Source: Anaerolineaceae bacterium
GTDB taxonomy: Bacteria > Chloroflexota > Anaerolineae > Anaerolineales > Villigracilaceae
NCBI GenBank assembly: GCA_003598975.1
Contig: QZIJ01000036.1
Span: forward strand, 1 to 64,000
Direction: 5' to 3'
Length of the DNA stretch: 64,000 bases
In this document: positions 40,892 through 62,149 of the stretch, in pieces
How positions within the stretch are numbered: the stretch's first letter is position 1
How the letters are laid out: every line of letters starts with the position of its first letter
Translations under genes and position numbers: made by a program
Notes under the pieces: generated by a model
What the model was told of the DNA's origin: nothing
What the model saw: only the letters and a program-made list of their open reading frames with translations
Databases searched by the model: none

Positions 40892-41494
40892 TCAGATCAA
40901 GCCCCTTTCTGCGAAGGACATGACTGTGGTGTCCGCCACGATGAAATGGTCGAGCACCCTTATATCAACAAGTGACAACGCCTGCTTCAGCGCATCGGTC
41001 AGCATCCTGTCGGACTGGCTTGGTTCGGCCACGCCAGATGGGTGGTTATGCGCGAAGATCACCGCCGCCGCGTTGAGCGCCAACCCTTTCTTCACCACTT
41101 CCCGTGGGTACACCGACGTTTGGGTCAGCGTTCCACGAAACAGCTCCATCCCCGCAATCAGTCGATGCTGTGCGTCGAGCCAGAGCGCGACGAAACTCTC
41201 GAACTCCTGCCCGCCCAGAAACAGCCGCAGGTAATCATGCACCGAGGCCGGTGATGACAAGCTGTCGGACGACTCTTCAAAGTCTTCTTCCAGCGCTCGC
41301 CGCAACAGTTCCCGTGCTGCCATCAGTCTATCGGGCATGGCATAAGGTAAAACCTCTTCTGCCACACCGATCGGCTTTTCATGCCGCATCACGCGCAGCC
41401 CGAAAAGCTCTGCCAGGGAGCGCATGGAATACGATTCGCCCTCTTCACCCAGCAGGATCGAGAGCAATTCGCGGTCGGATAATTTCTTCATCAT
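40892..41494 (-). CDS. radC: RadC-family JAB-domain protein
   Basis: IFAHNHPSGVAEPSQSD JAMM motif; start set to ATG 41494 because the listed start falls in the SD. Confidence 0.92.
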   Translation of the reverse strand: MMKKLSDRELLSILLGEEGESYSMRSLAELFGLRVMRHEKPIGVAEEVLPYAMPDRLMAARELLRRALEEDFEESSDSLSSPASVHDYLRLFLGGQEFESFVALWLDAQHRLIAGMELFRGTLTQTSVYPREVVKKGLALNAAAVIFAHNHPSGVAEPSQSDRMLTDALKQALSLVDIRVLDHFIVADTTVMSFAERGLI

Positions 41495-41562
41495 GGGTGC
41501 CTCCAAATAAAAAAGCGGGGCGGCACCCTCCCCTTGCGGGACGGTTACACGCCCCGCAAGGG
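41492..41562 (-). ncRNA. Two-hairpin leader RNA of radC (radC-RNA-motif-like)
   Basis: CCCTTGCGGG-N12-CCCGCAAGGG, then GGGTGCC-N20-GGCACCC immediately before ATG, with SD GGAGG in the stem. Confidence 0.75.
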
Positions 41563-41578
41563 TTGAAAAAATTGAAAC

Positions 41579-42376
41579 TTACTGCGTTACTGCTGTCCGG
41601 TCGCCCGGTCTTCCCGCTTCGAGAATCTTCTGGCTTGCGCTGAAAATCCGCTGTGCCGATTTCTCCGGTAGCTGACCATCATCGAGCCACGACTGAATGT
41701 AGCCTCGCGACTCATCCCGCCCCGGCAGATCGAAAAGCGAGCACAGGAGGAATGCCACGCCTTCGGCCTCGACTTCCTTAAGGCTTCTTGGCGTCAAGGT
41801 TGCGTCATGGCAATCCGCTTCCTGGGTGTGCCCCAGAACAACGTGAGCTATCTCGTGAAACCGGGTTTTGTGTGGATACTCGGCAATAGGACTGACTGCA
41901 ATCCGCCTTTTTACCGCATAGCCCTGCACGTTACCGTCCATGAGATCGAAGCGTTCCGGCGTGATGTCCAATGCTGTCAGAGCAGCTTCGGCATTCCACT
42001 GCGGCGATTCGATCGGCTCGGTGTAGTCCTCACCTTCGGTCTGTTCCAGGCTGAACCAGCGTGGTGCCAACTTGAAGACAGTGACTGCCTCACCGGAATC
42101 GTCGGATTCGCCAGAGGTTTCGCCCTTGTCCTTGCGTTTGACCGTGATAGGCATCCACAGGAAAATAGCCTTCTGCCCTTTGCAAACCGAACGACCAAGC
42201 TCCTTCCACCGGCTAAAGCTCGCAATCGGTGAAAGCGGTAAATGCCGCTGATGAAGTTGAACTGCCGCCAGAATCTGGTTGCCAATGCTGAAGCGATGGA
42301 ACCTGCGGTAAGCCTCGCTCACGATGCCAGGCTCGGTGAGAGCCCGTGCGAGAAGCTGTGCAAATTTTTCGTACAT
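41579..42376 (-). CDS. ardC: ArdC-like antirestriction protein (N-terminal ssDNA-binding plus zincin-like domain)
   Basis: MYEKFAQLLARAL...SIGNQILAAVQ...WKELGRSVCKGQKAIFLWMP; metallopeptidase motif RFHEIAHVVLGH. Confidence 0.87.
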   Translation of the reverse strand: MYEKFAQLLARALTEPGIVSEAYRRFHRFSIGNQILAAVQLHQRHLPLSPIASFSRWKELGRSVCKGQKAIFLWMPITVKRKDKGETSGESDDSGEAVTVFKLAPRWFSLEQTEGEDYTEPIESPQWNAEAALTALDITPERFDLMDGNVQGYAVKRRIAVSPIAEYPHKTRFHEIAHVVLGHTQEADCHDATLTPRSLKEVEAEGVAFLLCSLFDLPGRDESRGYIQSWLDDGQLPEKSAQRIFSASQKILEAGRPGDRTAVTQ

Positions 42377-42440
42377 GGTGCCTCCAATAAAAAACGGGAA
42401 GGCACCATCCCCCACGGGGATAGATACACTCCCCGTGGGA
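42374..42440 (-). ncRNA. Two-hairpin leader RNA of ardC
   Basis: CCCACGGGG-N11-CCCCGTGGG, then ATGGTGCC-N18-GGCACCAT enclosing SD GGAGG and the ATG. Confidence 0.75.
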
Positions 42441-42485
42441 TAGAAAACCGGCCATGGCCGGGTTATTTATGCTGCATCACTACAA

Positions 42486-43568: not shown

Positions 43569-43640
43569 CACAGGTGCCTCCATGGAAAGCCCCTGACGGA
43601 ACCTTCCGGGACACCCCTTGCCGGGATCCTTGGAAGGTCA
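43566..43640 (-). ncRNA. Diverged leader element of primase-like gene
   Basis: ACCTTCC...GGAAGGT stem and CATGGAGGCACCTGTGATG SD region similar to the other leaders; second stem weak. Confidence 0.4.
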
Positions 43641-43891
43641 CGGCTGGGCCGGTTGGAAATTTCCGCGCGGCATGGAGTTACCCCTACCGGGATACTCTCT
43701 CCCGGCGGGATTCATGATGCTGTTTGTTTTCTCGTGGCCAGCTACCACACTTTCATCCGGCACCTTATTGGGTGGGATTGAATATCAAGGTGAATCTCGC
43801 GCCCTCTTGGGAATTCCTGGCTTTAACAAACGGGAATCTGCGAAGGATGAAATGGTCATTATGCTACGCAGTTACTAACATGCATGACTGC

Positions 43892-43920: not shown

Positions 43921-44216
43921 ACTATCTAGAAATTCTGATGAAACCACCAACCCGAACGTCCATATGAGACGGTCAATGTTGCGATTTGGGCATTGCCGGA
44001 TTCACGCTGATCGACAAAGCTTAGGCAACTTTACATTGATCGTTTTAAACAACTTGATTTATCTCGACACTGATATGCATCAACTCTTCGCGAATGCTTA
44101 ACTCGCGGATTACCAAAGCTGCATCAGCAGGATTTAGCTCAGGTAGTAAGTGTGTGGCGGTCTTACCTGAAATAGGTGCGACAGGTAATCGAACAAGAAG
44201 CAGCCTCCACGAATGG

Positions 44217-46376: not shown

Positions 46377-46393
46377 TGCCAGCTCTTCCGAGC

Positions 46394-47149
46394 CTACAGC
46401 GGTATGTTAAAAATCATTTTAATTGTCCAATTATTGGAATCTTTCATCCAGCCACGACCAATACCGATATTAATGTCGTGCCCGAAAATTTCGGTATCTG
46501 ATGTCAGATAAGTTTCTTGGCTCAGGCTTTTCATCTGGTTAGTTGCGCCAAAATCGGAATAATGCTCAATGTTAAGCCAGGTTTTGTCTGTTGCCCTGCG
46601 GCCAACTTTGAATGCGGGAGAAAAGCCAGGCGTATGAGAGTTGCCGGATAATGCGAAACCTAAAATTGGGTTTGCCGTGAGATTCCAATCATCAGATTTG
46701 TATCCAAGAATAGGGCGAACTTCAAAGTTCCAGCGTTGTTCGCTAATACGTCTTGTACTGGGGCCTAGTTCACCATTGATGCCCCAATAAAATCCATGTT
46801 CCCGGTTGTCGCCGATATATTTCAGGCGCACCCTTGGCAATTCAGCATACCAATTATTGTTAGCATCCCGGATGGCAGGAAGATAAAGCCCGCCTTCCAG
46901 ATTATTACTGAACCCATAGGCAAATTCTGGCGTCACCCTAAAATTATGGTGTGCCGGAATCTCTCCGTCGTAGGCAGGAGTTTTGACCCCGGAAGGAACA
47001 TAATTCATGTGAATATCGACGTTAAGCTCGCCCTTTTTGTTGATGGCCTCATCGTAAACTTGAATTTCATCGGCGGACGCAGCCATTACTTCCGTGCTTG
47101 CAACCATTGCCAGTACAAATAAACATAATTTAATCTTTTTATTCCGCAT
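46394..47149 (-). CDS. Hypothetical outer-membrane/periplasmic protein of the metal island
   Basis: 251 aa with signal peptide and beta-rich C-terminus. Confidence 0.6.
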   Translation of the reverse strand: MRNKKIKLCLFVLAMVASTEVMAASADEIQVYDEAINKKGELNVDIHMNYVPSGVKTPAYDGEIPAHHNFRVTPEFAYGFSNNLEGGLYLPAIRDANNNWYAELPRVRLKYIGDNREHGFYWGINGELGPSTRRISEQRWNFEVRPILGYKSDDWNLTANPILGFALSGNSHTPGFSPAFKVGRRATDKTWLNIEHYSDFGATNQMKSLSQETYLTSDTEIFGHDINIGIGRGWMKDSNNWTIKMIFNIPL

Positions 47150-47172
47150 AACAATCTCCCTAAAATGTAAAG

Positions 47173-47598
47173 CTACTCAAAACGTACCGGGAACGCAGTT
47201 CCGGCCTGATCTGTGCAAACGCCTGACGGTTTTGCGCCAGATTTCCAGATCAAGCGGCACGAGACTTCCTGCCCATCTGCTGATTTGGCAATCGTCTCGA
47301 CGGAATGAGTTACATGATCTGTGTCGAGTCCGGAGAAAATCCGGTCCCAATGCTTCGGATTGACGCCGTAATAGCGTTTGCGCAGTTCCGCCAAATTTCT
47401 CTGTCTCTCGACAGTAAACCCATGAGACTCATAACGGCGGTTCGGCGCCTCCAGCACGAGGCGGTTGTCCTTCCCACGGTCATGAACCAGTTCGCCGCCA
47501 ACAAACGGGGCTTCTCCTTCCTTGACCATTTGGTGAACATGGGCGGCGCAGCCGGTCAGCAGCAAAATGACCAGTATGCCAAAGTAAAATGTTTTCAT
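47173..47598 (-). CDS. Small lipoprotein of the metal island
   Basis: MKTFYFGILVILLLTGCAAHVHQ lipobox; start re-assigned to 47598. Confidence 0.65.
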   Translation of the reverse strand: MKTFYFGILVILLLTGCAAHVHQMVKEGEAPFVGGELVHDRGKDNRLVLEAPNRRYESHGFTVERQRNLAELRKRYYGVNPKHWDRIFSGLDTDHVTHSVETIAKSADGQEVSCRLIWKSGAKPSGVCTDQAGTAFPVRFE

Positions 47599-47699
47599 TT
47601 CATTTCCTTTCATTATTGGAGGCCAGTAGTGCGGCAGCGTAAATTTTGAACAGTATCGAGCGCACGCCGGACGGCGTCGAACCGTAAGCATCAGTTTTA

Positions 47700-48995
47700 T
47701 CAGTAATGATTGGCATGGTGTTCGTCCTCATCATTTCCTAACGGCCATAGTTGATGGGCATCCAGCAGCAAACGGTAGCGCGCCTCGTTGGCATCGAGTT
47801 GCGCGAGGGTTTCCGCCAACGAAGATTCAAGAGCGAAACGGTGTGCGGTGAGGCTGTCCGGCAGGCTGCTTTCGCCCAGGCTGTAAGCCTTGGCTACCAG
47901 TTCGGCATTGCTGCGGATGGCTAGTGCGGCCTCTTGCGCTAGTTGCCATGTGCTGTGGTTATTTACTGCCTGTGTATATGCTGCGTAGCTGTCGCCTTCC
48001 AGTCGGAGTTTGACAAAGGCTTCCTGATCGGCAGCGATAACGGCTTGCTGAATGGCGCCTTCCGCCGTCGCGCTGCGTTGTCCGAAAGAGAGCGGCATGC
48101 TGACATACACGCCGGTCACTTTTTCGCTGCCGCCCGATTCATTCGAATAACGCACCCCGACGGTAGGATCGGGCAACTGGTCGGCACGACTGCGCTGCGC
48201 CAGAAGTTGTTGTACGCGGCTCTGTTCCTGCACCATGCCGAGTTCGTGGTTGTGTTCGAGTATGCGCGACTTCCAGAATGCGAAATCATGCTCGACGGCT
48301 TGCGGTGTGGTGGGCGGTAGTTTGTCCGGCAACTGGATGGCGGGAAATTGCCGTCTCAAATCATTGTTCGCAAGTTGTGCGCGCAATTGGGCTTGATGCC
48401 ATGACACGCCAGCTTGTGCGGCGGCGGCTTGCGCCTGGTTCAACTCCAGCTTGGGCGCATCGCCAGCCTTGACGCGCTTCTCGGCCATTTGCGCTTGCTG
48501 CTTGAGAATATCCACCTGCTGTTGCCACAGATAGGTCTGCGCCTGCTCGCGCTGCCATGCGAACCACAGTTGCAGCAGGGTGCGCGCGGCTTCATGGCGC
48601 GCGTTGCCGAGTGCGTACTCGGCGCGCGCGACACTGGCTGCACCGATGTCTTCATCAATGCCTACCTTGTTGTACAGGCGCAACGGACGTTCCAGCGCGA
48701 CATCCCATTCCTTCAGGTTTTCTCCGGTGCTGGCGATATTGCGTTGCCCCGTGCCAGCGCGCAGGTTGAACTCGTAGCTGCCGCTGTTCCATTTGCGCTG
48801 ATTGGCGAGTTCCATTTTCAGCTCGCTGGCAGCATTCAGCGCAGGCAAGTAGCTGTTCAGCGCGCTTTCCATTTGCGCTGGTGACGGCAAGTCGGGGGGG
48901 CTGATTTCTGCGGCAAAGACAAGATTGCCGAACAAGGCCAGAACTAACAGGCTGCATCCTGCTTTCAATTTGTTGCTTGATTCGCTCCGTTTCAT
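47700..48995 (-). CDS. czcC: CzcC-like outer membrane efflux factor
   Basis: 431 aa TolC-family pattern with signal peptide. Confidence 0.9.
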   Translation of the reverse strand: MKRSESSNKLKAGCSLLVLALFGNLVFAAEISPPDLPSPAQMESALNSYLPALNAASELKMELANQRKWNSGSYEFNLRAGTGQRNIASTGENLKEWDVALERPLRLYNKVGIDEDIGAASVARAEYALGNARHEAARTLLQLWFAWQREQAQTYLWQQQVDILKQQAQMAEKRVKAGDAPKLELNQAQAAAAQAGVSWHQAQLRAQLANNDLRRQFPAIQLPDKLPPTTPQAVEHDFAFWKSRILEHNHELGMVQEQSRVQQLLAQRSRADQLPDPTVGVRYSNESGGSEKVTGVYVSMPLSFGQRSATAEGAIQQAVIAADQEAFVKLRLEGDSYAAYTQAVNNHSTWQLAQEAALAIRSNAELVAKAYSLGESSLPDSLTAHRFALESSLAETLAQLDANEARYRLLLDAHQLWPLGNDEDEHHANHY

Positions 48996-49315
48996 GCCAG
49001 CCTCCCGAATTCAATCACTGGCGTGATCCAATAACTCATTTCCGGATTGTTTTCTTCGCGCTTGAGGTATGCCACCAGCGCGTGCGCATCGTCCAGATTC
49101 ATTACGCTCTGGAGGGCGACGCGCTGCGAGCGTCCGCGTACCTGCTCGGTCTTGCTCGACAGGGTTTCTTGCCGGCTGCCACCCTCCATCTTGAGCATGG
49201 TGAAACCATGCACCCATTCTGGATGTTCCAGCAGGTGGTCCACCAGCCGTTCTTCCACTGCGTAGTGGCAGACCAGCGTCAAACAGCAATTCATTTCTTT
49301 CATTTGATTTTTCAT
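48992..49315 (-). CDS. DUF3240-type small protein
   Basis: 107 aa between czcA and czcC, overlaps both; CCLTLVCHYAVEERLVDHLLEHPEWVHGFTMLKMEGG. Confidence 0.7.
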   Translation of the reverse strand: MKNQMKEMNCCLTLVCHYAVEERLVDHLLEHPEWVHGFTMLKMEGGSRQETLSSKTEQVRGRSQRVALQSVMNLDDAHALVAYLKREENNPEMSYWITPVIEFGRLA

Positions 49316-52300
49316 TTGATCTCCTTGGCCCGTTCCAGGCCGAAACGGCGATAAAGAATGGGCAGCATGATGAGCGTCAATAACGTCGAGCTGATCAATC
49401 CGCCTATCACAACAATGGCGAGCGGTTTCTGGATTTCGGAACCTGGGCCGGTGGCAAACAACAGCGGCAACAGCCCGAAAGCGGTGATGCTGGCCGTCAT
49501 CAGCACCGGGCGCAGGCGTCGCTTCGCGCCTTCAAACACGACTTGTGCAATGCCGATGCCCTCGGCGTGTAGCTGGTTGAAGTAGGACACCATCACTACG
49601 CCGTTGAGCACCGCAATTCCCAGCAGCGCGATGAAGCCGACCGAGGCGGGAACGGACATATATTCGCCGCTCGCCCACAAAGCCAGTACGCCGCCGATCA
49701 AGGCGAACGGGATGTTGGTCAGCACCAAGACGGCTTGCCGCACCGAACCGAAAGTGGCGAACAGCAACATGAAAATCATGCCGAGCGCGACCGGAATGAC
49801 GATGGTGAGCCGTGCCGCCGCGCGTTGCTGGTTCTCGAATTCTCCGCCCCAGGTCAGGCGATAACCTTCCGGCAGTTTGATTTGCGCGGTGACGGCGGTC
49901 TTGGCTTCCTCGACGAAACCCACCAGATCGCGCTCGTGCACATTGCTTCGCACCACTACCATGCGTTGGCCGTTTTCCCGATCCACTTTGACCGGGCCAT
50001 CAACGCGTTCCAGCTTGGCGACCGCCGACAGCGGCACGCTTTGCCCGTTTGGTAAGGGCAGGGTGAGTGCGGCAAACAGTGCGGGGGATCGCTGGATGTC
50101 GCTTGCGCCACGCATAATCAGCGGAGTGCGTCGCCCATCTTCAATCACGATCCCGAGTTGCTGCCCTTCGATCTGGCTGCGCAGGATGTTGCCGATGTCG
50201 TCCACGTTCAACCCCAAACGACCGGCGGCGAGGCGGTCTATTGCCACGCGGTAATACTGCACACCGCTATTCTCCGTGGTGTACACATCCTGGCTGCCTT
50301 TGATCTCTTTCAGCACCTTGACCATTTGCTCGGCGGTTTCGTTGAGCTTGTTCAAGTCCGTACCGAAAATCTTGATCGCCACATCACCTCGCGCGCCGGT
50401 CAGCATTTCCGAAACGCGCATGGCAATGGGCTGGCTGAAGCTGTAAGAAATACCCGGAAGTTGCTCCAGCACCTCGCGCAGCTCGTTTATTAGTAATTCC
50501 TTGTTTGGCTTACGCCATTCTTTCATCGGCTTCAGCACCAGAAATGAGTCGGTCTGGTTAAGTCCCATCGGATCCAGGCCAATCTCATCGGAACCGGCGC
50601 GCGCCACGATATTTTGGACTTCCGGCACATGTTTCATGATGGCCTGTTGAATTTTCAAGTCGAGCGCCGCCGTTTGAACCAGGCTGACGGAGGGTAATTT
50701 TTCTATGCCGACGATGATGTCTCCCTCGTCCATTTCCGGCATGAAGGTCTTGCCGATCTGGGTGTACACCACGCCGGTGATGACCAGCATGACCAGCGCA
50801 CCGATGATAACCACGCGCTCTTTGTTCAAGGCGCGTTGCAGCAGCGGCGTGTAAATACCCATCGCCTTGCGCACCAACCACGGCTCCTGGTGGCTGACCC
50901 GCTTGAGCAGAAAGGAAGCGAGCATCGGCACTACGGTCAGCGACAGCAGCAGCGATGCGGCCAGCGCAAACACAATGGTCAATGCGACCGGAATGAATAA
51001 TTTGCCTTCCAAACCTTGCAAGGTGAGCAGCGGCAGAAACACGATGATGATGATGGCGACCCCGGCGGCAACGGGTGTGATGACTTCTTTCACCGCGCGG
51101 GAAACGACATGCAGATGCGACAGCTTGTTGATATTTTTGTCTTGCGCAAGATGCGACTCGATGTTTTCCACTACCACCACCGCCGCGTCCACCAACATGC
51201 CGATGGCGATGGCTAGCCCGCCCAGACTCATCAGGTTGGCGGACATGCCAAACTGCTGCATGAGAATGAAAGTGCACAGCATTGCGAGCGGCAAGGTGAT
51301 CGCCACCACAATGGCTCCGCGCAGATTGCCGAGGAACAGCACCAGCAGAATGATGACCAGCACGATGGCTTCGGTGATGGCTGTGGAGACGGTTCCGACC
51401 GCGCGTTCCACCAGGTTGCCGCGATCATAAAACACCTTGGTGGTGATGCCTTGCGGCAGCGTGGGCGTGAGTTCCTGCAATTTTGCTTTCACACTGGCGA
51501 CGATCTTTTGCGCATTTGCGCCGCGCAGACCGACCACTATTCCTTCCACTGCTTCGCCTTGCCCGTCCTTGGTCACGACACCAAGACGAGTCAGGCTGCC
51601 GATGCGCACTTGTGCGACATCGCTAACGCGAATCGGGCTTCCATCACGACTGGCGACGACGATGTTGCGCACATCTTGTAGATTGTTGATGTTGCCTTCG
51701 GTGCGCACCAGCAGCGCTTCATCACCATCGCTGAGACTTCCTGCACCATCGTTATGGTTGTTGGCTTGTATGGCTTGTTGCAGCATGGCAAAAGAAATGC
51801 CGTGCGCGGCGAGGGCGTGGTGATCAGGCACCACTTCAAAAGTGCGCACCAAACCGCCTATGGTATTGACCTCTGCCACGCCGGGCAGTGTGCGCAAGAC
51901 AGGCCGTATCACCCAATCCAGAATCGTGCGACGCTCCTGCAGGGAAAAGTTTTCGCCTTCCACGGTGAACATGAACATATCACCCAGCGGCGTGGTGATT
52001 GGCGCGAGTCCGCCGGTGACATTGCCTGGCAAGTCACGCTGCGCGTTATTCAGCCGTTCCGCGACTTGCTGGCGTGCCCAGTAGATGTCGGTGCCCTCAC
52101 TAAAATTGATGGTGATGTCGGCGATCGCATACTTTGAGGTGGAGCGCAGAATGTCTTGTCGAGGGATGCCGAGCATCTCCAGTTCGATAGGGGCGACGAT
52201 GCGCGCCTCGACTTCCTCCGGCGTCATGCCCGGAGCCTTCATGATGATCTTGACCTGCGTCGGGGAAACATCGGGAAACGCGTCAATCGGCAAGTCGCGG

Positions 52301-52392
52301 TACGACGCGATGCCCACACCGATCAGCAGCAGCGTTAACGCCGCTACCAGCATTCGTTGTGTCAGGGCGAATTCAACCAGTTTGGTCAACAT
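49312..52392 (-). CDS. czcA: CzcA-like heavy-metal RND transporter
   Basis: 1026 aa; HME-RND pattern, LPIDAFPDVSPTQVKI, TM IV GMLVDAAVVVVENIE. Confidence 0.95.
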   Translation of the reverse strand: MLTKLVEFALTQRMLVAALTLLLIGVGIASYRDLPIDAFPDVSPTQVKIIMKAPGMTPEEVEARIVAPIELEMLGIPRQDILRSTSKYAIADITINFSEGTDIYWARQQVAERLNNAQRDLPGNVTGGLAPITTPLGDMFMFTVEGENFSLQERRTILDWVIRPVLRTLPGVAEVNTIGGLVRTFEVVPDHHALAAHGISFAMLQQAIQANNHNDGAGSLSDGDEALLVRTEGNINNLQDVRNIVVASRDGSPIRVSDVAQVRIGSLTRLGVVTKDGQGEAVEGIVVGLRGANAQKIVASVKAKLQELTPTLPQGITTKVFYDRGNLVERAVGTVSTAITEAIVLVIILLVLFLGNLRGAIVVAITLPLAMLCTFILMQQFGMSANLMSLGGLAIAIGMLVDAAVVVVENIESHLAQDKNINKLSHLHVVSRAVKEVITPVAAGVAIIIIVFLPLLTLQGLEGKLFIPVALTIVFALAASLLLSLTVVPMLASFLLKRVSHQEPWLVRKAMGIYTPLLQRALNKERVVIIGALVMLVITGVVYTQIGKTFMPEMDEGDIIVGIEKLPSVSLVQTAALDLKIQQAIMKHVPEVQNIVARAGSDEIGLDPMGLNQTDSFLVLKPMKEWRKPNKELLINELREVLEQLPGISYSFSQPIAMRVSEMLTGARGDVAIKIFGTDLNKLNETAEQMVKVLKEIKGSQDVYTTENSGVQYYRVAIDRLAAGRLGLNVDDIGNILRSQIEGQQLGIVIEDGRRTPLIMRGASDIQRSPALFAALTLPLPNGQSVPLSAVAKLERVDGPVKVDRENGQRMVVVRSNVHERDLVGFVEEAKTAVTAQIKLPEGYRLTWGGEFENQQRAAARLTIVIPVALGMIFMLLFATFGSVRQAVLVLTNIPFALIGGVLALWASGEYMSVPASVGFIALLGIAVLNGVVMVSYFNQLHAEGIGIAQVVFEGAKRRLRPVLMTASITAFGLLPLLFATGPGSEIQKPLAIVVIGGLISSTLLTLIMLPILYRRFGLERAKEIK

Positions 52393-53507
52393 TATTCACC
52401 CCCGCCGATGCCCATCAGGCTGGATTTGAGCGTGGAGACGCCGCGTACCGCGATTTTCTCATCGCCCTTGAGTTCGCCGCTGATCACGCTGTTTTGTGCG
52501 CCCTCATTCAGCACGTTGATGGTTTGCGCGCGAAAACCTTCGGCGGTTGCCACAAACACCACTGTTCTGCCCGCGATGCGCGAAATCGCGCTGTTGGGAA
52601 TTTCCCACTGCGCACCGCCGTTCGCGCTGATACTGATACTGGCTTCGACAAACTGACCGGGGCGCAGATTTTCTGTGCCTTGCTGGATCATGGCACGCAA
52701 CAAAATAGTCTGATTGGTGCCGGACAGGCTGCGCCCAATCGCGGTGAGCCTGCCGCTTGCCGCATAAGCGGGGACAGTAACCGCCGCGCCAATCTTCAGA
52801 TCGCGGGTGTAGGCCAGCGGAGCCTGAATCTCCAGGGTGAGCGGATCGAGCTTGGCAATCGTGAACATCGGCACGGCAGCGTCGAGACGTTGCCCCGTGC
52901 TGGCAGACTTTTCCAGCACCGCGCCATCAATCGGTGCGGTCAGGGTAAGCAGGCTGCTTACGCTGTTGCTGGATTGCAGTTGTGCAATCGCAGCCTCGGA
53001 CATTCCGGCAAGACGCAACATCTGCTTGCGCTCGGACAATGCCGCCCCAGCTTCGAGCGCCGCCCCCTTGGTGGCGAGGAAGCGGCTCTCTGCGATGATG
53101 CCATCTTTCCATAACGCTTCATCGCGGGCGAGATTCTGCTGAGCGAGCTGGCTTTGCACACCGGCCTGCAACAAACCACGCTGCGCTTCCACCAATGCCG
53201 GGCTTTGCAGCCGCGCTATCGGCTGGCCTTTCCTGACGCTGTCGCCCACGCCAACCAGGGTTTGTTCGACCATGGCCGGAAACGGGGTGCTGATGACAAA
53301 CAATTGGTTGTGAGGAATGACCACCTGCGCGGGCAGTCCGGATACTACACCGGATTGTTTGGCGGGCAGCGCAGCAGTGACGACGCCGAGGGCTTGGACT
53401 TGTTTGGCGTTAAGCGCCAGTTCATCGGATGGGCCTGATGTATCAGATGCTAGGGCATTTTGCGAAAAGCACAAGGCCGGCAGCAAATAGAAAAATATCG
53501 CTTTCAT
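52392..53507 (-). CDS. czcB: CzcB-like membrane fusion protein
   Basis: Signal peptide; biotinyl-lipoyl-like hairpin; overlaps czcA start. Confidence 0.92.
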   Translation of the reverse strand: MKAIFFYLLPALCFSQNALASDTSGPSDELALNAKQVQALGVVTAALPAKQSGVVSGLPAQVVIPHNQLFVISTPFPAMVEQTLVGVGDSVRKGQPIARLQSPALVEAQRGLLQAGVQSQLAQQNLARDEALWKDGIIAESRFLATKGAALEAGAALSERKQMLRLAGMSEAAIAQLQSSNSVSSLLTLTAPIDGAVLEKSASTGQRLDAAVPMFTIAKLDPLTLEIQAPLAYTRDLKIGAAVTVPAYAASGRLTAIGRSLSGTNQTILLRAMIQQGTENLRPGQFVEASISISANGGAQWEIPNSAISRIAGRTVVFVATAEGFRAQTINVLNEGAQNSVISGELKGDEKIAVRGVSTLKSSLMGIGGGE

Positions 53508-53693
53508 ATGGAACTCCAGATGCTGCGCAGGGCAGCACCGCAAATTGAAATCGGACTGAAACTGACAAGAACGGCATGGCGGCCTGCAATGCGATCACAG
53601 CCCTCTTGAGGCAATCAACAAGTTGCTTTTCAGAGGAACCATACTTTGCTCGCGCAAAGCATGGCCGACAGCATTACAAATGCCAGAGGTTTT

Positions 53694-54050: not shown

Positions 54051-54332
54051 GGTTAGTTGATTAACTTTAGTCTTCGAGTAAAACGTGGTGCATTTAACCC
54101 TGCCGTAACTCCAATGTCAATTCCGAGTGCGAGATGAATGCGGATACCCGCACCGCCTGACGCGGTGTCAATTCTAGCTTGTGGTGGCGAAACATGCATA
54201 TTTTCGGTGGTTGGTTTTGAGCATATATTTCATCTTTCCATATAGCATGTGCAGTTCCATACACATGCATATGAGAAGCCCCGGAACAAGTCCGGGGCCA
54301 TGAGTATTACGATTTTTGTGAAACGTGCCTCC

Positions 54333-54372
54333 AGAAAAAACAGGAACCCGCACCACTTCTGGCATGGGTTCC
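54333..54372 (-). terminator. Intrinsic terminator of the methylase-helicase gene
   Basis: Minus strand GGAACCC-ATGCCAGAAGTGGTGC-GGGTTCC-TGTTTTTT, just after the stop at 54397. Confidence 0.8.
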
Positions 54373-54396: not shown

Positions 54397-57300
54397 TCAG
54401 GCGACTTCGGCTTCCGCTTCCATCGCACCGGCGTTACCCTTGTCGAGATCGAGCGCTGCATTGATCTCGCGTTGGCGCACCAGCAACTGCGTGAGCCTTT
54501 CTTCCTTTTCGAAAGGCTTGCCCAGCTCCGAGAGTATGTCGGCCTGACGCTTTTCTGTCCGGGCCATCTCATTGCAGGCTTCTGCCAGTCGTCCTTCCAG
54601 GCTGTTGGCCACGTTCTCGATCACCCTGACCATCCCTTGCGGGCTGTCTGAATGGTGAGCCATGTAGCCACGTCGCCCTTTCAGGATGAAGCAAGGGCCA
54701 TCATCGGCTGTTGTCGGGATGGTCACTTCGAGATCGAAGCCAGCAAACTGCCCAACCGTCACTTCTCCCGGCGAGGATGTCCAGTTCCCGAACTTCCGGG
54801 TTCTGGCCTTGGCCTCTATGTAGCACCGGTGAAGCACCTCTCCAGCCGCTGACCGTTCGATGTAGCATTTTCCGTCAATCACCATGCTGAAGCGGTTACC
54901 CCGCACATCCGCGCGATCCGCAATGTCGGCTTCTACCGATCCGACCCGCTCCCGGATCTTCTCGATTCTGCCGGGCAGGGTCGCCGACTCCCGCTGGTTC
55001 GCCCATCGCTGATTGTCCCATTGGGATTTGAGCAATGAAAGCTTTGCGACTTCGGCATCTATACCCGCCTTTTCCATCACCAGCGGATTACCCGATGCCA
55101 ACGCTTTCACCTCGGCATAGGACAGCGCAGCCAACTCCACGTCCTCCGCACTGCGCATTCCAGTATCCCCGCGCATAACCTGGGCAATGAAGCGCGCCTT
55201 GGTTTCGAGGGTCTGCCAGATGTAGGCATCGAACGAGGCCTCTGTGACATAGCGGATGATCCGCACCTCTTCGTTCAGGTTTCCCTGCCGAATAATGCGT
55301 CCCTCCCGCTGCTCGACATCCGATGGCCGCCAAGGAGCGTCCAGATGGTGCAACGCCGCCAGACGGGTCTGGATGTTGGTGCCGACGCCCATCTTCAAGG
55401 TGCTGCCGAGGAGGATGCGAATCCGCCCTTCCCTCACCGACTTGAACAACTCTGCCTTGGCGGCATCGCTGTCGTAATCGTGAATGAAGGCAATCTCCGT
55501 TCCCGGAACACCCATTTCGACGAGCTTTGCGCGAATGACGTGATAGACACTGAACCGTCCATCGTCAGTCGGTGTGCTGAGGTCGCAAAACACGGCCTGA
55601 GTCCCACGGAACGCTGCGGTTTCCCGCCATATCCCGAAGACCTTGTCCGCACACTGGCTGACCTTGCAGCCCTGTGCTTCCGGGCTTGAAGGATCAACCA
55701 GCCGCATATCCAACGCAGCCTTGCGGCCATCGTTGGTCACCGCCAGCATATTGTCTTCGCTGGGTGATACTTCGCCGTTGCGTATTGCTTCCGCGCGGGC
55801 GACCAATGTTGCAACAAACGCCTTCAACTCCGGCGTCGGCTTGGCCGTCACGGTTTCTAGATGATGCTTGGGCACCGGAAGTTTCAGCATGTCCGCCGTG
55901 CGTATGTCGGCCACTTCCCGGAACATGGTCATCAGCTCCGGCAAATTGACGAACCGCGCGAACCGCGTGTTCATGCGATAGCCGCCACCATCCGGCGACA
56001 GCTCCAGGGCAGTTACAGATTCCCCGAAGTTGCCCGCCCACGTATCAAACTGCGACACATGATTGGAGCGCAGCGTCATCGGCTGCAAGTAGCGTTGCAT
56101 GGTCCACATCTCGGCCATCGAGTTAGAAACCGGTGTCCCTGTTGCGAACACCACACCCGAACGACCGCCCTGCTTTTCCATCACATGGCGCGTCTTCACG
56201 AACATATCGAAGGCGCGCTCCGAGTTGGAGTTTGGCAGACCTGCAACCCGCGTCATTTTGGTGAAGCGGTACAGGTTTTTGAAGTAGTGCGCCTCGTCTA
56301 TGAAGAGATAATCAATGCCCAGCTCCTCGAACGTGAGCATGTCATCCTTCTTCGATTTGGCCGACATTTTCTCCAGCCTCGCGAGCCATATCTTCTTGGC
56401 CCGCTCCAACTCCTTGACGATGCGATTCCCCCGCTTGCCTGATTTCGAGGCCATTAGTGCGCACTCGATTTCGTAGACTCGCGCTTCGATAAACGACTCC
56501 ATTGCTTCGTCGCTCATCTTGATCCTCTCGAAAGAGGCGTGGGTAATCAGCACCGCATCCCAATCGCCGGTGGCGATCCGTGACAGCAGCGTCCGGCGTT
56601 TGTCACCGACCAGATCGTCCTTGCTGGCCATCAGGATGTTGGCACCCGGATAAGCCCGCAAAAACTCCGCCGCAAACTGCTCAAGCATGTGGTTGGGCAC
56701 CACGTAGCACGGCTTGCTGGCCATGCCGAGACGCCGTAACTCCATTCCGCCGCAGATCATCGTCAGTGTCTTACCGGCACCGACCACGTGTGCCAACAGG
56801 GTGTTTACCCCGCCGGACACGATTCGCCAGATGCCGTCCTTCTGATGGCGATGGAGGCTGTACACCTCGGAAAATCCCGGCAAAGAGAGCCATGAACCAT
56901 CGAACTCTCTCAGCCTGACAGCATTGAACTGGTCGTTGTACATCCTGACCAGCCGCTCGCACCGCTCGGAATCGGCGAACACCCAGGAACGGAATTTCTC
57001 CTTGAGTGCCTGCTGCTTTTCCCTTGCGGCAATGGTTTCTTCGGTGTTCACGTGATACCGGTCAGTGACCGGGTCACGATCCCTGATCGTCGGAACCATC
57101 TGGTTGAGCGTAACGACAAACAACTCGCCCGCCGTGATGCGCCCCGTGCCGTAGGTTTGGGTCGAGGCTACCGACTTCTCCCCCTGCCAAGGCACATCAA
57201 CATTCCATGCCCCGGCTTCGGAACCGAACTCCACCGTGCAACCATCGCATTCCAGAAGATGATCGAGGAACGCTGCGTAGTCACGCGCCGGGATCCAGGT

Positions 57301-59385
57301 CGAGCCTATCCGTGCATCTATTTCACCCGGCCCCAAATCAAGCGGGATGACCGCCTTCAGCGCCTCGACGTTACGGACAAACTCTTCTCCCGCCGCTTCC
57401 GCCATCTCCAGCTTGATACGCACGTTGCCGGAGAGATAAGCATCGGAGGTTTCCCACTGCGATGATTCCGGGTTCAGGAAAATCAAACCTCGACCTGCCA
57501 TATCCGGAATGAATTGCGCCCTGTCCTGCCCGAGCAATGATTCCATCAACGCAACATCAATGCGCCCGCGCTCGTGCAGGGATACCAGCAGCGCCTCTTC
57601 GGCAGACGCACACCGCTCAACCTTGCGAACGACCCCTACCGTTCTGCGGTAGAAAATGTCCGCCTTCTCCGCCGTGCCACTTTCCGGATCAAAATTCTCC
57701 AGAGACAGCAGCAGCGGCAGATCGGGATCGCCCTTGAATGCCAGCTTGTTGGCTTTGGCATGGAGATAGCCATGCTTCGCCACAAAGCTGTCGTAGGCCA
57801 CATTGAGCGCCAGCCGGTAACTACCCAACCGGCTATCATCCGCAGTTGCATGCTGAACGTGGAGCAGCTTTCGCGCGGCATTGCGGATCGCCATCAAACC
57901 GTGAATCCGTCTGGCTACCGTTGCCGACACCGAACTGCCTATCACCAGCAACTCCTGCCCTTCCGAAACGGCCAGTCGGCCATCTGGAGTCAGGCAGTAC
58001 GCCCCCGGTTTGACGAACTCCGGTGCCGCGACGCGAATGTCCCGCCGCGTATTCACAGACAGCTCGGCAGCACGGGGCGTGTAAACACCCTCGGGCAACC
58101 TGGCTATCCGCTCTACCAGCGCCACCTTCACATCGCCGTCGAAGACCGCTGCATTGGCGAGACCAAAGCCATTTGACTTCTGCCCCATGCGACCGATCAG
58201 CATGTCCGGGTTCTGGACATACCAGCTCGACACGAACAAGCGCCGGTAACCCTCGCACATTTCCTGCGGAGCCTCCATGACACCAATCCAATCGTCGGAT
58301 GCCTTCTCGCCTTCCTCCGGCTTTTGCAGGAAGACAACATCGGTCGTGACTTCAGTATTGGCGAGGTGTGAAAACGTCCCTGACGGCAGACGAATCGCAC
58401 CGACGAATTTGGCGTTTGCGCTGATATAACGCCGCGCCTGATCGTCCCACTTGTCGAGCGTACCGGCGGAAGTAATGAACGCCACCAACCCGCCCGGACG
58501 CGTTACCTCCAGAGCACGACCAAAGAAATAATCGTGGATGAGGAAGTTTGCATACGGTAAATTCCGGTCATCAGGAACCTGATAGTTTCCGAAAGGAACA
58601 TTCGAGATCACCAGATCGAACCAGTCCTTGGGCAGTCTGGCTTTCTCGAAACCGACCGCCATCGTCCTGACCCCATGATGCCCGTAGAGACGCGACAGAA
58701 TGCGGGACGACACGCGATCAATCTCGATTGCCGTTACTTCCGAAGCTTCAGCCAAATCCTTCGGCATAGCTCCGATGAAATAACCGACTCCCGCAGAAGG
58801 CTCCAAGATGCGACCGCCCCGGAAACCCATGCGGCGAACGGCATCCCATATCGCCTCAATCACGAATACTTCCGTGAAGTGGGCATTGACGACACTGCCC
58901 TTGGCACTCTCGTAATCCTCGCCCAGAATTTCCGGCATGGACTCGGCTCTCGCCTTCCACGTCGGCTCGTCCTGATCGGGATTGAACGCCTTCGGTATTC
59001 CGCCCCATCCGGTGTAGCAGTTCAGAACATCGCGCTCTTCATCCGTCGGCGACCGATTGTCCGCCTCAAGACGATGCAGCAACGAAACGGCTGCCATGTT
59101 CGCATCGAACTTGGTGACATCGCCTCGCAGCTTCGAGTGCAACATCTGATCAAGGCTAGGCCAAAGAGTCCGAGGTGGCTTGCTTGCGTGGATCGTTGTC
59201 GGTACAACTATCGACAAATCCTGCGCAGGCTCTTCATTCACCGGAGCACTGACCTGCGCCTGATCTACCAGCGGAAAAGCGATGATCTCCGCCGTCTGAG
59301 TGAAGCATGGAACAACATGAAGTGAATCGTCCGGGGCCAAGCCCGGAAGCCACATCGTGGCCTCGGCAAGTTTCTTGAGTTTCAC
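54397..59385 (-). CDS. Giant N6-adenine methylase-like/SNF2 helicase fusion (DarB-like antirestriction/plasmid protein)
   Basis: ILEPSAGVGYFIGAMP and DLVISNVPFGNY (MTase); HVVGAGKTLTMICGG, LFIDEAHYFKN, EQREGRIIRQGN (helicase). Start re-assigned to GTG 59385. Confidence 0.88.
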   Translation of the reverse strand: MKLKKLAEATMWLPGLAPDDSLHVVPCFTQTAEIIAFPLVDQAQVSAPVNEEPAQDLSIVVPTTIHASKPPRTLWPSLDQMLHSKLRGDVTKFDANMAAVSLLHRLEADNRSPTDEERDVLNCYTGWGGIPKAFNPDQDEPTWKARAESMPEILGEDYESAKGSVVNAHFTEVFVIEAIWDAVRRMGFRGGRILEPSAGVGYFIGAMPKDLAEASEVTAIEIDRVSSRILSRLYGHHGVRTMAVGFEKARLPKDWFDLVISNVPFGNYQVPDDRNLPYANFLIHDYFFGRALEVTRPGGLVAFITSAGTLDKWDDQARRYISANAKFVGAIRLPSGTFSHLANTEVTTDVVFLQKPEEGEKASDDWIGVMEAPQEMCEGYRRLFVSSWYVQNPDMLIGRMGQKSNGFGLANAAVFDGDVKVALVERIARLPEGVYTPRAAELSVNTRRDIRVAAPEFVKPGAYCLTPDGRLAVSEGQELLVIGSSVSATVARRIHGLMAIRNAARKLLHVQHATADDSRLGSYRLALNVAYDSFVAKHGYLHAKANKLAFKGDPDLPLLLSLENFDPESGTAEKADIFYRRTVGVVRKVERCASAEEALLVSLHERGRIDVALMESLLGQDRAQFIPDMAGRGLIFLNPESSQWETSDAYLSGNVRIKLEMAEAAGEEFVRNVEALKAVIPLDLGPGEIDARIGSTWIPARDYAAFLDHLLECDGCTVEFGSEAGAWNVDVPWQGEKSVASTQTYGTGRITAGELFVVTLNQMVPTIRDRDPVTDRYHVNTEETIAAREKQQALKEKFRSWVFADSERCERLVRMYNDQFNAVRLREFDGSWLSLPGFSEVYSLHRHQKDGIWRIVSGGVNTLLAHVVGAGKTLTMICGGMELRRLGMASKPCYVVPNHMLEQFAAEFLRAYPGANILMASKDDLVGDKRRTLLSRIATGDWDAVLITHASFERIKMSDEAMESFIEARVYEIECALMASKSGKRGNRIVKELERAKKIWLARLEKMSAKSKKDDMLTFEELGIDYLFIDEAHYFKNLYRFTKMTRVAGLPNSNSERAFDMFVKTRHVMEKQGGRSGVVFATGTPVSNSMAEMWTMQRYLQPMTLRSNHVSQFDTWAGNFGESVTALELSPDGGGYRMNTRFARFVNLPELMTMFREVADIRTADMLKLPVPKHHLETVTAKPTPELKAFVATLVARAEAIRNGEVSPSEDNMLAVTNDGRKAALDMRLVDPSSPEAQGCKVSQCADKVFGIWRETAAFRGTQAVFCDLSTPTDDGRFSVYHVIRAKLVEMGVPGTEIAFIHDYDSDAAKAELFKSVREGRIRILLGSTLKMGVGTNIQTRLAALHHLDAPWRPSDVEQREGRIIRQGNLNEEVRIIRYVTEASFDAYIWQTLETKARFIAQVMRGDTGMRSAEDVELAALSYAEVKALASGNPLVMEKAGIDAEVAKLSLLKSQWDNQRWANQRESATLPGRIEKIRERVGSVEADIADRADVRGNRFSMVIDGKCYIERSAAGEVLHRCYIEAKARTRKFGNWTSSPGEVTVGQFAGFDLEVTIPTTADDGPCFILKGRRGYMAHHSDSPQGMVRVIENVANSLEGRLAEACNEMARTEKRQADILSELGKPFEKEERLTQLLVRQREINAALDLDKGNAGAMEAEAEVA

Positions 59386-59440
59386 GTGTATCTCCTGGAA
59401 AAACCGGAGACACGTGTCCCTGCCGGGGTGTGTCCCCGGA
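59383..59440 (-). ncRNA. Two-hairpin leader RNA of the methylase-helicase gene
   Basis: CCGGGG-ACACA-CCCCGG, then CACGTGT-N20-ACACGTG with SD AGGAG in the loop side and the GTG start in the 3' arm. Confidence 0.75.
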
Positions 59441-59479
59441 TGGGTTATGGCCTGTTGGCCCAAATGATTTACGACTGCT

Positions 59480-59719
59480 TTATTCCGTACTTCCCATCGC
59501 CAGATTCTGTTCGCGCTTCATCAGTCCAAGATGAACCAGATATTGCTTCAGTCCTGCAAGGTCGCTACGGTGTTGCATCCAGCCATCCTCGAAAATCTCA
59601 AAACCCTTGATCTCGAAAATGCTCCGGCCACGCGTGTTACGAACATCGGCATAGAAACAGCCGCGCTCGTCCAGATTGATGAAGTACCGGTAGACGGCAC
59701 CCCTGCAAAGTTGAGTCAT
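59480..59719 (-). CDS. Small hypothetical protein (79 aa)
   Basis: MTQLCRGAVYRYFINLDERGCFYADVRNTRGRSIFEIKGFEIFEDGWMQHRSDLAGLKQYLVHLGLM; SD AAGGAGG and its own leader RNA. Confidence 0.75.
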   Translation of the reverse strand: MTQLCRGAVYRYFINLDERGCFYADVRNTRGRSIFEIKGFEIFEDGWMQHRSDLAGLKQYLVHLGLMKREQNLAMGSTE

Positions 59720-59783
59720 GACGCCTCCTTAAGTAATGCGGAAGACGTCATGTCCCCTTGCGGAGGCTGACGCCCCGCAGGGT
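59717..59783 (-). ncRNA. Two-hairpin leader RNA of the 79-aa ORF
   Basis: CCCTGCGG...CCGCAAGGG stem with a bulge, then CATGACG-N22-CGTCATG enclosing SD and ATG. Confidence 0.7.
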
Positions 59784-59926
59784 TATAAAATGCTGTTTGT
59801 TTCGAGCGGCCAGCTACCGCCTTTCAGTCCCAGCCCAACGGGCAGGTGCGGAATCAGCTTTCCACAAAAGGCTGCTGCAACCCTTTCTGGAAAGCCCGGC
59901 GTTGCCGCCGGGTAAATGCCCTGTTT

Positions 59927-60721
59927 TCATCCGCGCTTGCGACTACGCTTGCGCTTCGGAAAACCAAATCGGGCCCATGTATCCGGATCGACGGGAAGCG
60001 GTGTCGTCCGGGCATTTTTGAGATTGACGAAAACGCCGTGGTAGGCGATCTGTCCGTAGCGGAAAAGCTCCCACAGGAGATTCAAGGCATAAAGCGAAAC
60101 GCCCCTGTTGACGAAGAGCGATTGTTTTTCGAGCGCATCCGCCAGACTGCATGACGGTGTGTTGTCATCGGCTTCCTGCGTCTCGTCCCCGATTTCGGGG
60201 AGCAGGTCTATTGCATGCGGCAGGCGCTCCACACTTGGCTTGTCCCAGCGAGATGGCACTTGGCCAAGAATGACCTGACCATCATGAAGCCGATTGCCAA
60301 GATCAAGCCAATAGCCGCCACCGCCACGGGATACTGCGTCAAGGATTGCCTTTCTGGCCATGCGATTGTCCACGCAGCCGATCACAAGATCAGTGCGCAG
60401 ATTTTCGTTGCCAGTCAGGCGTCGCGTCTCAGCTTGCCAAGCGGTGCCCATCGCCATGTTGATGCGATTGACGAGCACTGTTGCCTTCGGAAGTCCCTCG
60501 TCAGACGGATAGAACATCTGCCGCCCGACATTGGCTTCCGAAACCTGGTCGCTGTCCATCACCGTGACTTCCAGGCCGCCGGGGTGCCCCAGCGCGATCA
60601 TGGACGTATGAAGCTGGGCCAATCCCGTCAACATCTGAGAACCGGTGCCGCCTGCGCCGATCACCGCGACATGAACTTCCCGCGTGAGGAGTTCAGGAGA
60701 GAGTAGATGTATAGCCATCAT
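59927..60721 (-). CDS. PRTRC system ThiF-family (E1-like) protein
   Basis: Start MMAIHLLSPELL; HVAVIGAGGTGSQMLTGLAQLH, EVTVMDSDQVSEANVGRQMF E1-like motifs. Confidence 0.9.
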   Translation of the reverse strand: MMAIHLLSPELLTREVHVAVIGAGGTGSQMLTGLAQLHTSMIALGHPGGLEVTVMDSDQVSEANVGRQMFYPSDEGLPKATVLVNRINMAMGTAWQAETRRLTGNENLRTDLVIGCVDNRMARKAILDAVSRGGGGYWLDLGNRLHDGQVILGQVPSRWDKPSVERLPHAIDLLPEIGDETQEADDNTPSCSLADALEKQSLFVNRGVSLYALNLLWELFRYGQIAYHGVFVNLKNARTTPLPVDPDTWARFGFPKRKRSRKRG

Positions 60722-61337
60722 CCCCTCCCTTCGTATCCTCCGCACCGAATGCCAGCGGCAGGAACAGCCCGTTAGCGCATAGGCGGAAAGCTGTAGAACA
60801 ACAAGCCTTATCGCAGTTACCGACAACACCGGCGATCTTGAACTCACCTCTGTCATCACTATCATCGTCTGGCGAGAAGAATGCCGATAGACGACCGTGG
60901 GAGTGAAGATCAACCACCAGATGCTCACCTTCATCGAGAGTCGGTCGCGTATAGCGAACGTGACTGCACCCGGTGGAAAGTTCTTCCAGGCGTTCCAATC
61001 GCATGTCGCCGGTTCGCTCGTTCCACACTATCCAGCCCACGCATTCATCCGGACACCGCTCTGCGGCGTAACGGAAAAACTCGAAGACCAGACGGCGAGG
61101 AATCTTGCCAAACGCAAGCGACAACTCACGAGTAACGACACCGTAAGGCATGGGCACATTCCGCTGGCGAACCAGCGGCGTGCGCAAATACATCCATGGA
61201 CGACGCGCCTCCAGCCACAACCCGTCGCCGGTCACCAGAAATCGGTGGCCGTTGCCGGTCATGGGCTCGAAAGCACTGTACCGAGGCACCAAAGTTACTG
61301 GCGCCGATTGTTGCAAAGCAATATCGCGCGTATCCAT
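60693..61337 (-). CDS. PRTRC system protein A (JAB/JAMM-like)
   Basis: LVVDLHSHGRLSAFFSPDDDSDD fits HxHx7SxxD; upstream of ThiF-like gene. Confidence 0.85.
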   Translation of the reverse strand: MDTRDIALQQSAPVTLVPRYSAFEPMTGNGHRFLVTGDGLWLEARRPWMYLRTPLVRQRNVPMPYGVVTRELSLAFGKIPRRLVFEFFRYAAERCPDECVGWIVWNERTGDMRLERLEELSTGCSHVRYTRPTLDEGEHLVVDLHSHGRLSAFFSPDDDSDDRGEFKIAGVVGNCDKACCSTAFRLCANGLFLPLAFGAEDTKGGDDGYTSTLS

Positions 61338-62075
61338 TCACGCCTCCGCTTCCAGGACGGCTGCCTCGAAGGTTTCGATCAGCGTCTTGCCCGTTGGAAC
61401 GAGCGTGCGCGTAGGAAACCGGGCAAACCTGCCATCAAGCAAGTCCCGCCACAGGGCAAAGGGGCCAGCCCGGTAACGGGTCAATCCCTTGGCCGTATGG
61501 ATGTTCGGATGTGTGAAGTAGGAACGGAAAAACGCTTCCTCCCATGCCTCGCTCTGATACGCCATATCACCTTTCGGCAACCGGGCATTCCCAACACAGA
61601 TGTTCCCTGTGTTCCAGACGTTGAAGAACGGCGCGACAAACAAGCTCGTATCTGCATCGGGACGTTGCCGCCCCTTGTAGGCAAATATCTTCCACGTCTT
61701 GTTGGTCACAATGAATATCAACCCCGGACACGGAGCACGTCCGGTACGCGCACCCAACTCCTTGCAGTCGAACCAGACCTGCCTGGGTTGTGGCTTGCTG
61801 AACCAGACGAAAAACCCCGGCCCTTCGGCGAGCACATGGGGCGGCTTGAGAGCGGGCCGCACCATCGCCTTGGGATCGAGAATCCTCATCAGCGACATGA
61901 GTCCCGATTTGCTTGCCGGGACACCCGCCTGAATGATGGGCTTGTCTGCGTCATCCGTTGATACATCGTGAACCGAGGCGAAAGCCGGATTGCGGCTTGC
62001 ATCCTGATACACGAGGATGGCGCTGCTCAGCCGGTATGACTGGCTGCTTGAAAAAGTGCTGACACTGATCGTCAT
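61338..62075 (-). CDS. PRTRC system protein B (prokaryotic E2-like)
   Basis: MTISVSTFSSSQSYRLSSAILVYQD...FFNVWNTGNICVGN; start re-assigned to 62075. Confidence 0.83.
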   Translation of the reverse strand: MTISVSTFSSSQSYRLSSAILVYQDASRNPAFASVHDVSTDDADKPIIQAGVPASKSGLMSLMRILDPKAMVRPALKPPHVLAEGPGFFVWFSKPQPRQVWFDCKELGARTGRAPCPGLIFIVTNKTWKIFAYKGRQRPDADTSLFVAPFFNVWNTGNICVGNARLPKGDMAYQSEAWEEAFFRSYFTHPNIHTAKGLTRYRAGPFALWRDLLDGRFARFPTRTLVPTGKTLIETFEAAVLEAEA

Positions 62076-62140
62076 GGCGACCTCCAAAAAAATGCAGAGG
62101 TGCGCCACCCCGTGCGGGCGTGACGACACCCCCGCAAGGT
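62073..62140 (-). ncRNA. Two-hairpin leader RNA of PRTRC_B
   Basis: CCTTGCGGG...CCCGCACGG, then TGGCG(c)ACCTC-loop-GAGGTCGCCATG with SD and ATG in the 3' arm. Confidence 0.72.
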
Positions 62141-62149
62141 TGAAAAAAA

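Follow-up and report, generated by a model that had tools for sequence, protein, structure and literature searches.

A Family of Putative Three-State RNA Leaders Ahead of Genes on PRTRC Plasmids and Integrated Conjugative Elements

Leaders and Genes in the Window

The window, a stretch of 64,000 nucleotides from a contig of an Anaerolineaceae bacterium, carries on its minus strand genes for a DNA methylase/SNF2-type helicase, PRTRC system protein B, an ArdC-like antirestriction protein and a RadC-family protein, each preceded by a leader of about 65–75 nt whose 3' end is the start codon (Table 1). In each leader the arms follow one another from 5' to 3' as A-B-X-C-(T-run)-D, with the Shine-Dalgarno sequence (SD) and the start codon lying within D. 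The motifs met along the leader are P0 (CAACCC), A (like NCGGGGACAC), a short loop, B (CCCCGN), X (GGG), C (like GTGTCTCCGN), the T-run and D (GGAG..., containing the SD). A can pair either with B, forming stem 1, or with C, forming a terminator-like hairpin; C can pair either with A or with D, the latter forming stem 2, in which the SD is hidden.

The first-pass annotation had listed A:C pairings in four leaders, and all were recovered with the claimed counts, namely 10 pairs with one G-U for methylase-helicase, 11 with three G-U for PRTRC_B, 8 for radC, and 8 with one G-U for ardC. Its interval, 59383–62140, holds the methylase-helicase and PRTRC_B leaders, whereas those of ardC and radC lie at 41.5–42.4 kb; a fifth leader, ahead of a small PRTRC_C-like gene, is also inside. 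In this fifth leader, which is without a T-run, A:C consists of approximately 7+4 pairs flanking a bulge.

The observation extends past the four leaders first noted. A covariance model, R1, built from 32 aligned leaders, matched at 12 sites in the window's own genome, every one on the same contig, the same strand and this element, from 41492 to 69964; the three weakest have E values of 0.07–0.8, and the element total is put at about 12 leaders. Genes behind the matches include SSB, a DUF3799 nuclease, RecT, PRTRC ParB, E and B, methylase-helicase, ArdC and RadC, a set that fits an establishment module, of which it is no proof. The leaders often begin shortly past the stop codon of the upstream gene, at a median distance of 36 nt and a range of 0–178, and this variable spacing led to the rejection of a fixed-distance coupling to the upstream ribosome.

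Besides these leaders, an orphan leader-like piece (GGAACCC...GGGTTCC; TGTTTTTT CTGGAGGCACG) occurs at 54310–54345 on the minus strand, 3' of methylase-helicase and with no gene behind it, and may be what is left of a leader or simply a terminator. A diverged leader-like stretch on the minus strand at 43580–43730, ahead of a primase-like gene, resembles positions 17632–17673 of the related locus L006. The region 44200–53600, between methylase-helicase and the primase-like gene, encodes metal efflux (P-type ATPase, RND pump, outer-membrane and adaptor genes) and is likely cargo inserted into the operon.

Table 1. Leaders in the window and the genes downstream of them.
Feature	Coordinates	Strand	Details
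PRTRC_B leader	62073..62143	minus	R1 47.6 bits; A 62126-62136, B 62113-62120, C 62093-62103, T7 62086-62092, D (SD) 62076-62085, ATG 62073-62075
PRTRC_C-like small-gene leader	59717..59786	minus	R1 28.9 bits; A 59769-59779, B 59759-59766, C 59737-59749, D 59720-59728
Methylase-helicase leader	59383..59447	minus	R1 60.4 bits; A 59430-59439, B 59423-59428, C 59404-59413, T5 59399-59403, D 59386-59396, GTG start 59383-59385
ardC leader	42374..42443	minus	R1 54.0 bits; A 42429-42436, B 42412-42420, C 42394-42401, then T-run, D 42377-42385
radC leader	41492..41565	minus	R1 53.1 bits; A 41550-41557, B 41532-41540, C 41515-41522, T6 41509-41514, D 41495-41504
DNA methylase / SNF2-type helicase gene, downstream of its leader	54397..59385	minus	
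PRTRC system protein B gene, downstream of its leader	61338..62075	minus	TIGR03737
ArdC-like antirestriction gene, downstream of its leader	41579..42376	minus	ArdC N-terminal domain PF08401
RadC-family gene, downstream of its leader	40892..41494	minus	RadC PF04002

Conservation of Three Pairings

A has to be complementary to B, and C to GGAGG, which makes partial complementarity between A and C inevitable; the arms of each leader were therefore compared with arms taken from other leaders, using duplex energies and 20000 permutations. For 42 related leaders, own versus swapped energies (kcal/mol) were -15.8 versus -12.0 for A:C, -12.6 versus -10.2 for A:B and -13.9 versus -10.8 for C:D, and swapped arms did as well in 0/20000 permutations for each; A:D gave no signal in this set and B:C a weak one. 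Because these 42 leaders had been picked using the T-run, a second set was chosen from the stem-1 module, X and the SD and start codon only, ignoring A:C, C:D and the T-run. This search gave 188 raw matches, as against 7 in locally shuffled DNA, and 89 leaders once similar ones were removed. The swap z scores in these 89 were -14.9 for A:C, -14.5 for C:D and -22.3 for A:B (each 0/20000), with -1.0 for B:C and +1.6 for A:D. Similar values came from 43 previously unused leaders of plasmid and other origin (A:C -10.0, C:D -11.1, A:B -15.8, B:C +0.8, A:D +0.2) and from swaps within elements (A:C -9.0, C:D -8.0, A:B -10.6, B:C -0.1, A:D +1.4). The three mutually exclusive pairings proposed at the outset are thus strongly supported. 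In addition, a match to C persists (z=-4.7 and -4.1 in the unbiased sets) when only the stem-1 loop, whose bases take no part in A:B, is considered. B:D gave a weak signal in the unbiased sets (z=-3.6 and -2.7), for which we offer no explanation.

Column counts in alignment A1 point the same way for the A:C helix: 88.0% of cells are paired versus 83.7% in shuffles, and changes on both sides number 19 versus 6.5. The A:B plus C:D structure is less clear in these counts, probably because the alignment shifts those arms. Within A:C, G-U pairs outnumber A-C mismatches by 81 to 16 (p=1e-11), which points to a helix in sense-strand RNA, with the caveat that C must match D too. A looser scan for three-way leaders by energy only was dropped, because in several plasmids its matches were almost as numerous on the opposite strand and in shuffled sequence. 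Conservation of the three pairings, the position at the start codon, the sense-strand G-U bias and the enrichment of T-runs described below are demonstrated here by comparison of sequences.

T-runs and Predicted Folding

After removal of some false positives by eye, 75 leaders were left for the energy, T-run, G-U and within-element analyses. Runs of four or more T ahead of the SD are found in 70% of Gallionella-type leaders, compared with 15% of other genes from those loci (p=1e-12); for plasmid leaders and other plasmid genes the figures are 29% and 11% (p=0.015). Altogether 38/75 leaders have such a run. The others, in which one would not expect an intrinsic terminator, retain A:C too, so that attenuation alone cannot account for it. 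In 35 of the 38, the end of A:C lies no more than 3 nt from the T-run, a figure that mainly reflects the position of C, since 87% of swapped A arms end there likewise. Nor is A:C clearly stronger in leaders with a T-run (p=0.10). Control by termination plus translation had been suggested in the first-pass annotation; translational control through C:D is the natural reading, and the termination part is backed by sequence for T-run leaders only.

In the full leader, constrained RNAfold predicts A:B+C:D at -31.8 kcal/mol versus -25.0, approximately 7 kcal/mol in its favour. When the RNA ends at C, A:C is preferred in 55/75 leaders. Stepwise folding of five leaders from the window and one relative gave the same course of predicted minima in 6/6, with A:B replaced by A:C when the RNA ends no more than 3 nt from the end of C, and A:B restored, with or without C:D, 12–17 nt later. 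A:C being the predicted minimum at the end of C, the switch would be set up around the arrival of polymerase at the T-run. Direct-path barriers from A:B to A:C are 18–25 kcal/mol (upper bounds), so that spontaneous switching during transcription may be slow and may depend on a factor, a delayed stem 1 or a non-nested path.

Judged from sequence and predicted folding, the T-run leaders, and no others, show the mark of a transcription attenuator, a putative terminator hairpin with a T-run that competes with an antiterminator. The C:D and A:C swap tests show the mark of an SD-sequestering RNA switch, in which pairing between the SD and an arm upstream of it is conserved and that arm has a second possible partner.

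Comparison With Known RNAs

Among the families of Rfam 15, none scored above its gathering threshold at the leaders themselves, and only RF02959 did so abutting one leader in one plasmid. The radC RNA, a cis-regulatory motif of proteobacteria, lies near radC and other genes for DNA handling. Its model (RF01754; 149 positions, cut-off 40 bits) has a consensus and structure unlike the leaders and was rejected as their identity: no match at E<10 was found in the window or leader regions, the best in the window's own genome was 15.4 bits and lay elsewhere, and none was found in related loci. The freshwater-2 RNA (RF02980, cut-off 49.9 bits) scored 21.1 bits for one Azonexus leader.

The DUF3085 RNA (RF02959, cut-off 40.6 bits) has no match in the window's genome (G000) or in the Gallionella-type genomes tested (G659, G660, G662). 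Scores above the cut-off occur only in the Azonexus plasmid (L035 and record NZ_CP151407.1) through sequence mostly upstream of the leader, and at least nine leaders there have a match immediately on their 5' side. The last 12 positions of the model (CAACCCacCGGG) equal the first bases of the Azonexus leaders, and the model ends ahead of B, X, C, the T-run and the SD. This suggests that the published motif is, in one plasmid at least, the upstream part of a longer element. A piece similar to RF02959 (GGTAGCTGGCCGCTCGAAACAAACAGC) is present ahead of the PRTRC_C-like leader of the window. At 59795–59830, and in related loci L004–L008, a conserved GCGGTAGCTGGCCGCT.GAAACAAACAGC ahead of several leaders resembles the start of the Rfam DUF3085 RNA.

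Classical transcription attenuators and erm-type translational attenuators have four arms with mutually exclusive pairings, the SD or terminator being in the last. The leaders described here differ from them in pairing arms 1 and 3 alternatively, not 2 and 3, in that no leader peptide is seen, and in having the T-run within the loop of the SD hairpin.

The 5' UTRs of traH and parA on the gonococcal genetic island are RNA switches (Ramsey et al., 2015, as cited in PMC8716806). According to PMC8716806, they form two stem-loops out of four legs, A to D, and the second stem-loop, SL2, covers the SD and start codon; for traH an alternate fold frees the start once the upstream portion of SL1 cannot be used, and none was found for parA. 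Disruption of the stems raised parA-lacZ more than 10-fold in E. coli and approximately 400-fold in gonococci; mutation of parA leg A abolished expression, and deletion of legs B and C raised it (PMC8716806). Going by this published description, the likeness lies in leaders on a conjugative-type element, two stem-loops and an SD in the last leg. Unlike the leaders here, the alternate traH fold suggests B:C and not A:C, and the gonococcal switches are described without a T-run and without dozens of copies. Loss of an A:C pairing may also explain why mutation of leg A abolishes parA expression. Searches of open-access full text on PRTRC with stem-loops or attenuation turned up no account of the present leader family. 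Its conserved pairings make it look like a genuine control switch, apparently one not yet described.

Proposed Mechanism and Alternatives

A three-state cis-acting leader, with the SD hidden by default and transcription attenuation added where a T-run follows, is the reading we judge probable. Such leaders would form a cis-acting family on PRTRC plasmids and integrated conjugative elements, standing ahead of the start codons of many element genes. In the finished mRNA, stable A:B and C:D would bury the SD, giving little translation by default, and the competing A:C helix would enclose a small B:X hairpin and leave D free. When polymerase is at the T-run, D is not yet made and A:C is the predicted favoured fold. 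With a T-run present, A:C would be expected to act as an intrinsic terminator; with none, it would act on translation only, by competing with D for C. Occlusion of the SD, termination, and the choice of state by some factor or by folding timing are what we infer. If A:C both terminated transcription and freed the SD, its two effects would be opposed.

A possible, if rather doubtful, alternative is a switch of translation only, in which A:C frees the SD from C, with the T-run serving as a U-rich spacer or S1-type enhancer and causing little or no termination. It would account for the conservation of A:C in leaders without a T-run, including 71% of the plasmid leaders, and for an A:C not clearly stronger where a T-run is present, and the gonococcal traH and parA leaders do work at translation (PMC8716806); against it stand the excess of T-runs over other genes of the same elements and their closeness to the end of A:C. 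The converse, an attenuator or intercistronic terminator acting by termination only with C:D as a by-product, draws on the half of the leaders in which a T-run directly follows a GC-rich helix. We consider it very improbable, as C:D is conserved about as well as A:C and A:C is retained in leaders without a T-run.

Equally improbable is a DNA element, such as an inverted repeat bound by a protein or a hairpin in the single-stranded DNA that is transferred, with the RNA fold incidental. Inverted repeats are indeed present on a conjugative element, and repeats near similar genes have been suggested to act in single-stranded DNA (STAXI; PMC2864571); against this explanation stand the sense orientation of the leaders and their ending at start codons, the pairing of C with the SD, and the tolerance of A:C for G-U with few A-C mismatches. 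Finally, A:C could be a chance product of G-rich and C-rich arms, A and C being partly constant (GGGG, CCTCC) and swapped arms still reaching about -10 to -12 kcal/mol. Nevertheless, own arms beat swapped ones (0/20000) in every set of at least 16 leaders, and B:C and A:D, of equal composition, are null in the unbiased sets; barring a shared unseen bias, the swap tests refute this explanation, to which we give hardly any credence.

The three-state leader could extend to an element-wide RNA regulon, in which one trigger flips 10–24 homologous leaders together, coupling termination with SD exposure and so switching all of the element's programme for establishment and maintenance. We put this forward tentatively and think it unlikely as yet. 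Its trigger may be an element-encoded protein or RNA, or folding timing in the first transcripts after entry. The element's own ProQ/FinO protein was rejected as a candidate, no ProQ/FinO domain being found in the elements and genomes searched.

Distribution on Conjugative Elements

Relatives of PRTRC_B in Gallionella, Nitrotoga, Sideroxydans and Rhodocyclales assemblies have the same leaders ahead of many genes; no PRTRC_B relatives were found in viral contigs. More distant PRTRC plasmids (Azonexus, Polaromonas, Burkholderia, Cupriavidus and others) also carry them, from a few to 24 per element. Whole-record R1 counts at E<=0.05, which include a few antisense echoes, are 24 for Azonexus, 20 for Polaromonas, 11 for Hydrogenophaga, 9 for Paraburkholderia, 7 for Piscinibacter, 6 for Cupriavidus and 4 for B. 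vietnamiensis. At the same threshold, 21 were counted in a Rhodocyclaceae genome, and 13 and 14 in the genomes of loci L014 and L024. By comparison with gene tables, 24/35 R1 matches on plasmids L035–L049 (E<=0.05) finish exactly at an annotated start codon.

Within the class of the window, leaders occur in 2/298 genomes, which indicates that they travel with elements. PRTRC ParB was abandoned as an element marker in this class, because only the window's element scored above the cut-off and the other hits were ordinary ParB. In another class genome, a short contig (L039) has leaders beside SSB-like and topoisomerase III-like genes, and the family may accordingly not be confined to PRTRC elements.

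RNA switches on conjugative elements have so far been reported as isolated examples, the gonococcal island among them. The present leaders make up a whole family with one architecture, in up to two dozen copies per element, from soil, from groundwater and on Burkholderia, Cupriavidus and Polaromonas plasmids. The family is testable with simple reporter fusions and provides a handle for finding the trigger. The switch, if true, would explain establishment genes that are transcribed yet quiet on such elements.

Other structured RNAs lie on two of the plasmids. The Cupriavidus metallidurans plasmid (L040) has the Rfam sbcD RNA at 25925–26079, and the Paraburkholderia plasmid (L049) has the Betaproteobacteria toxic small RNA of Rfam at 25991–26049.
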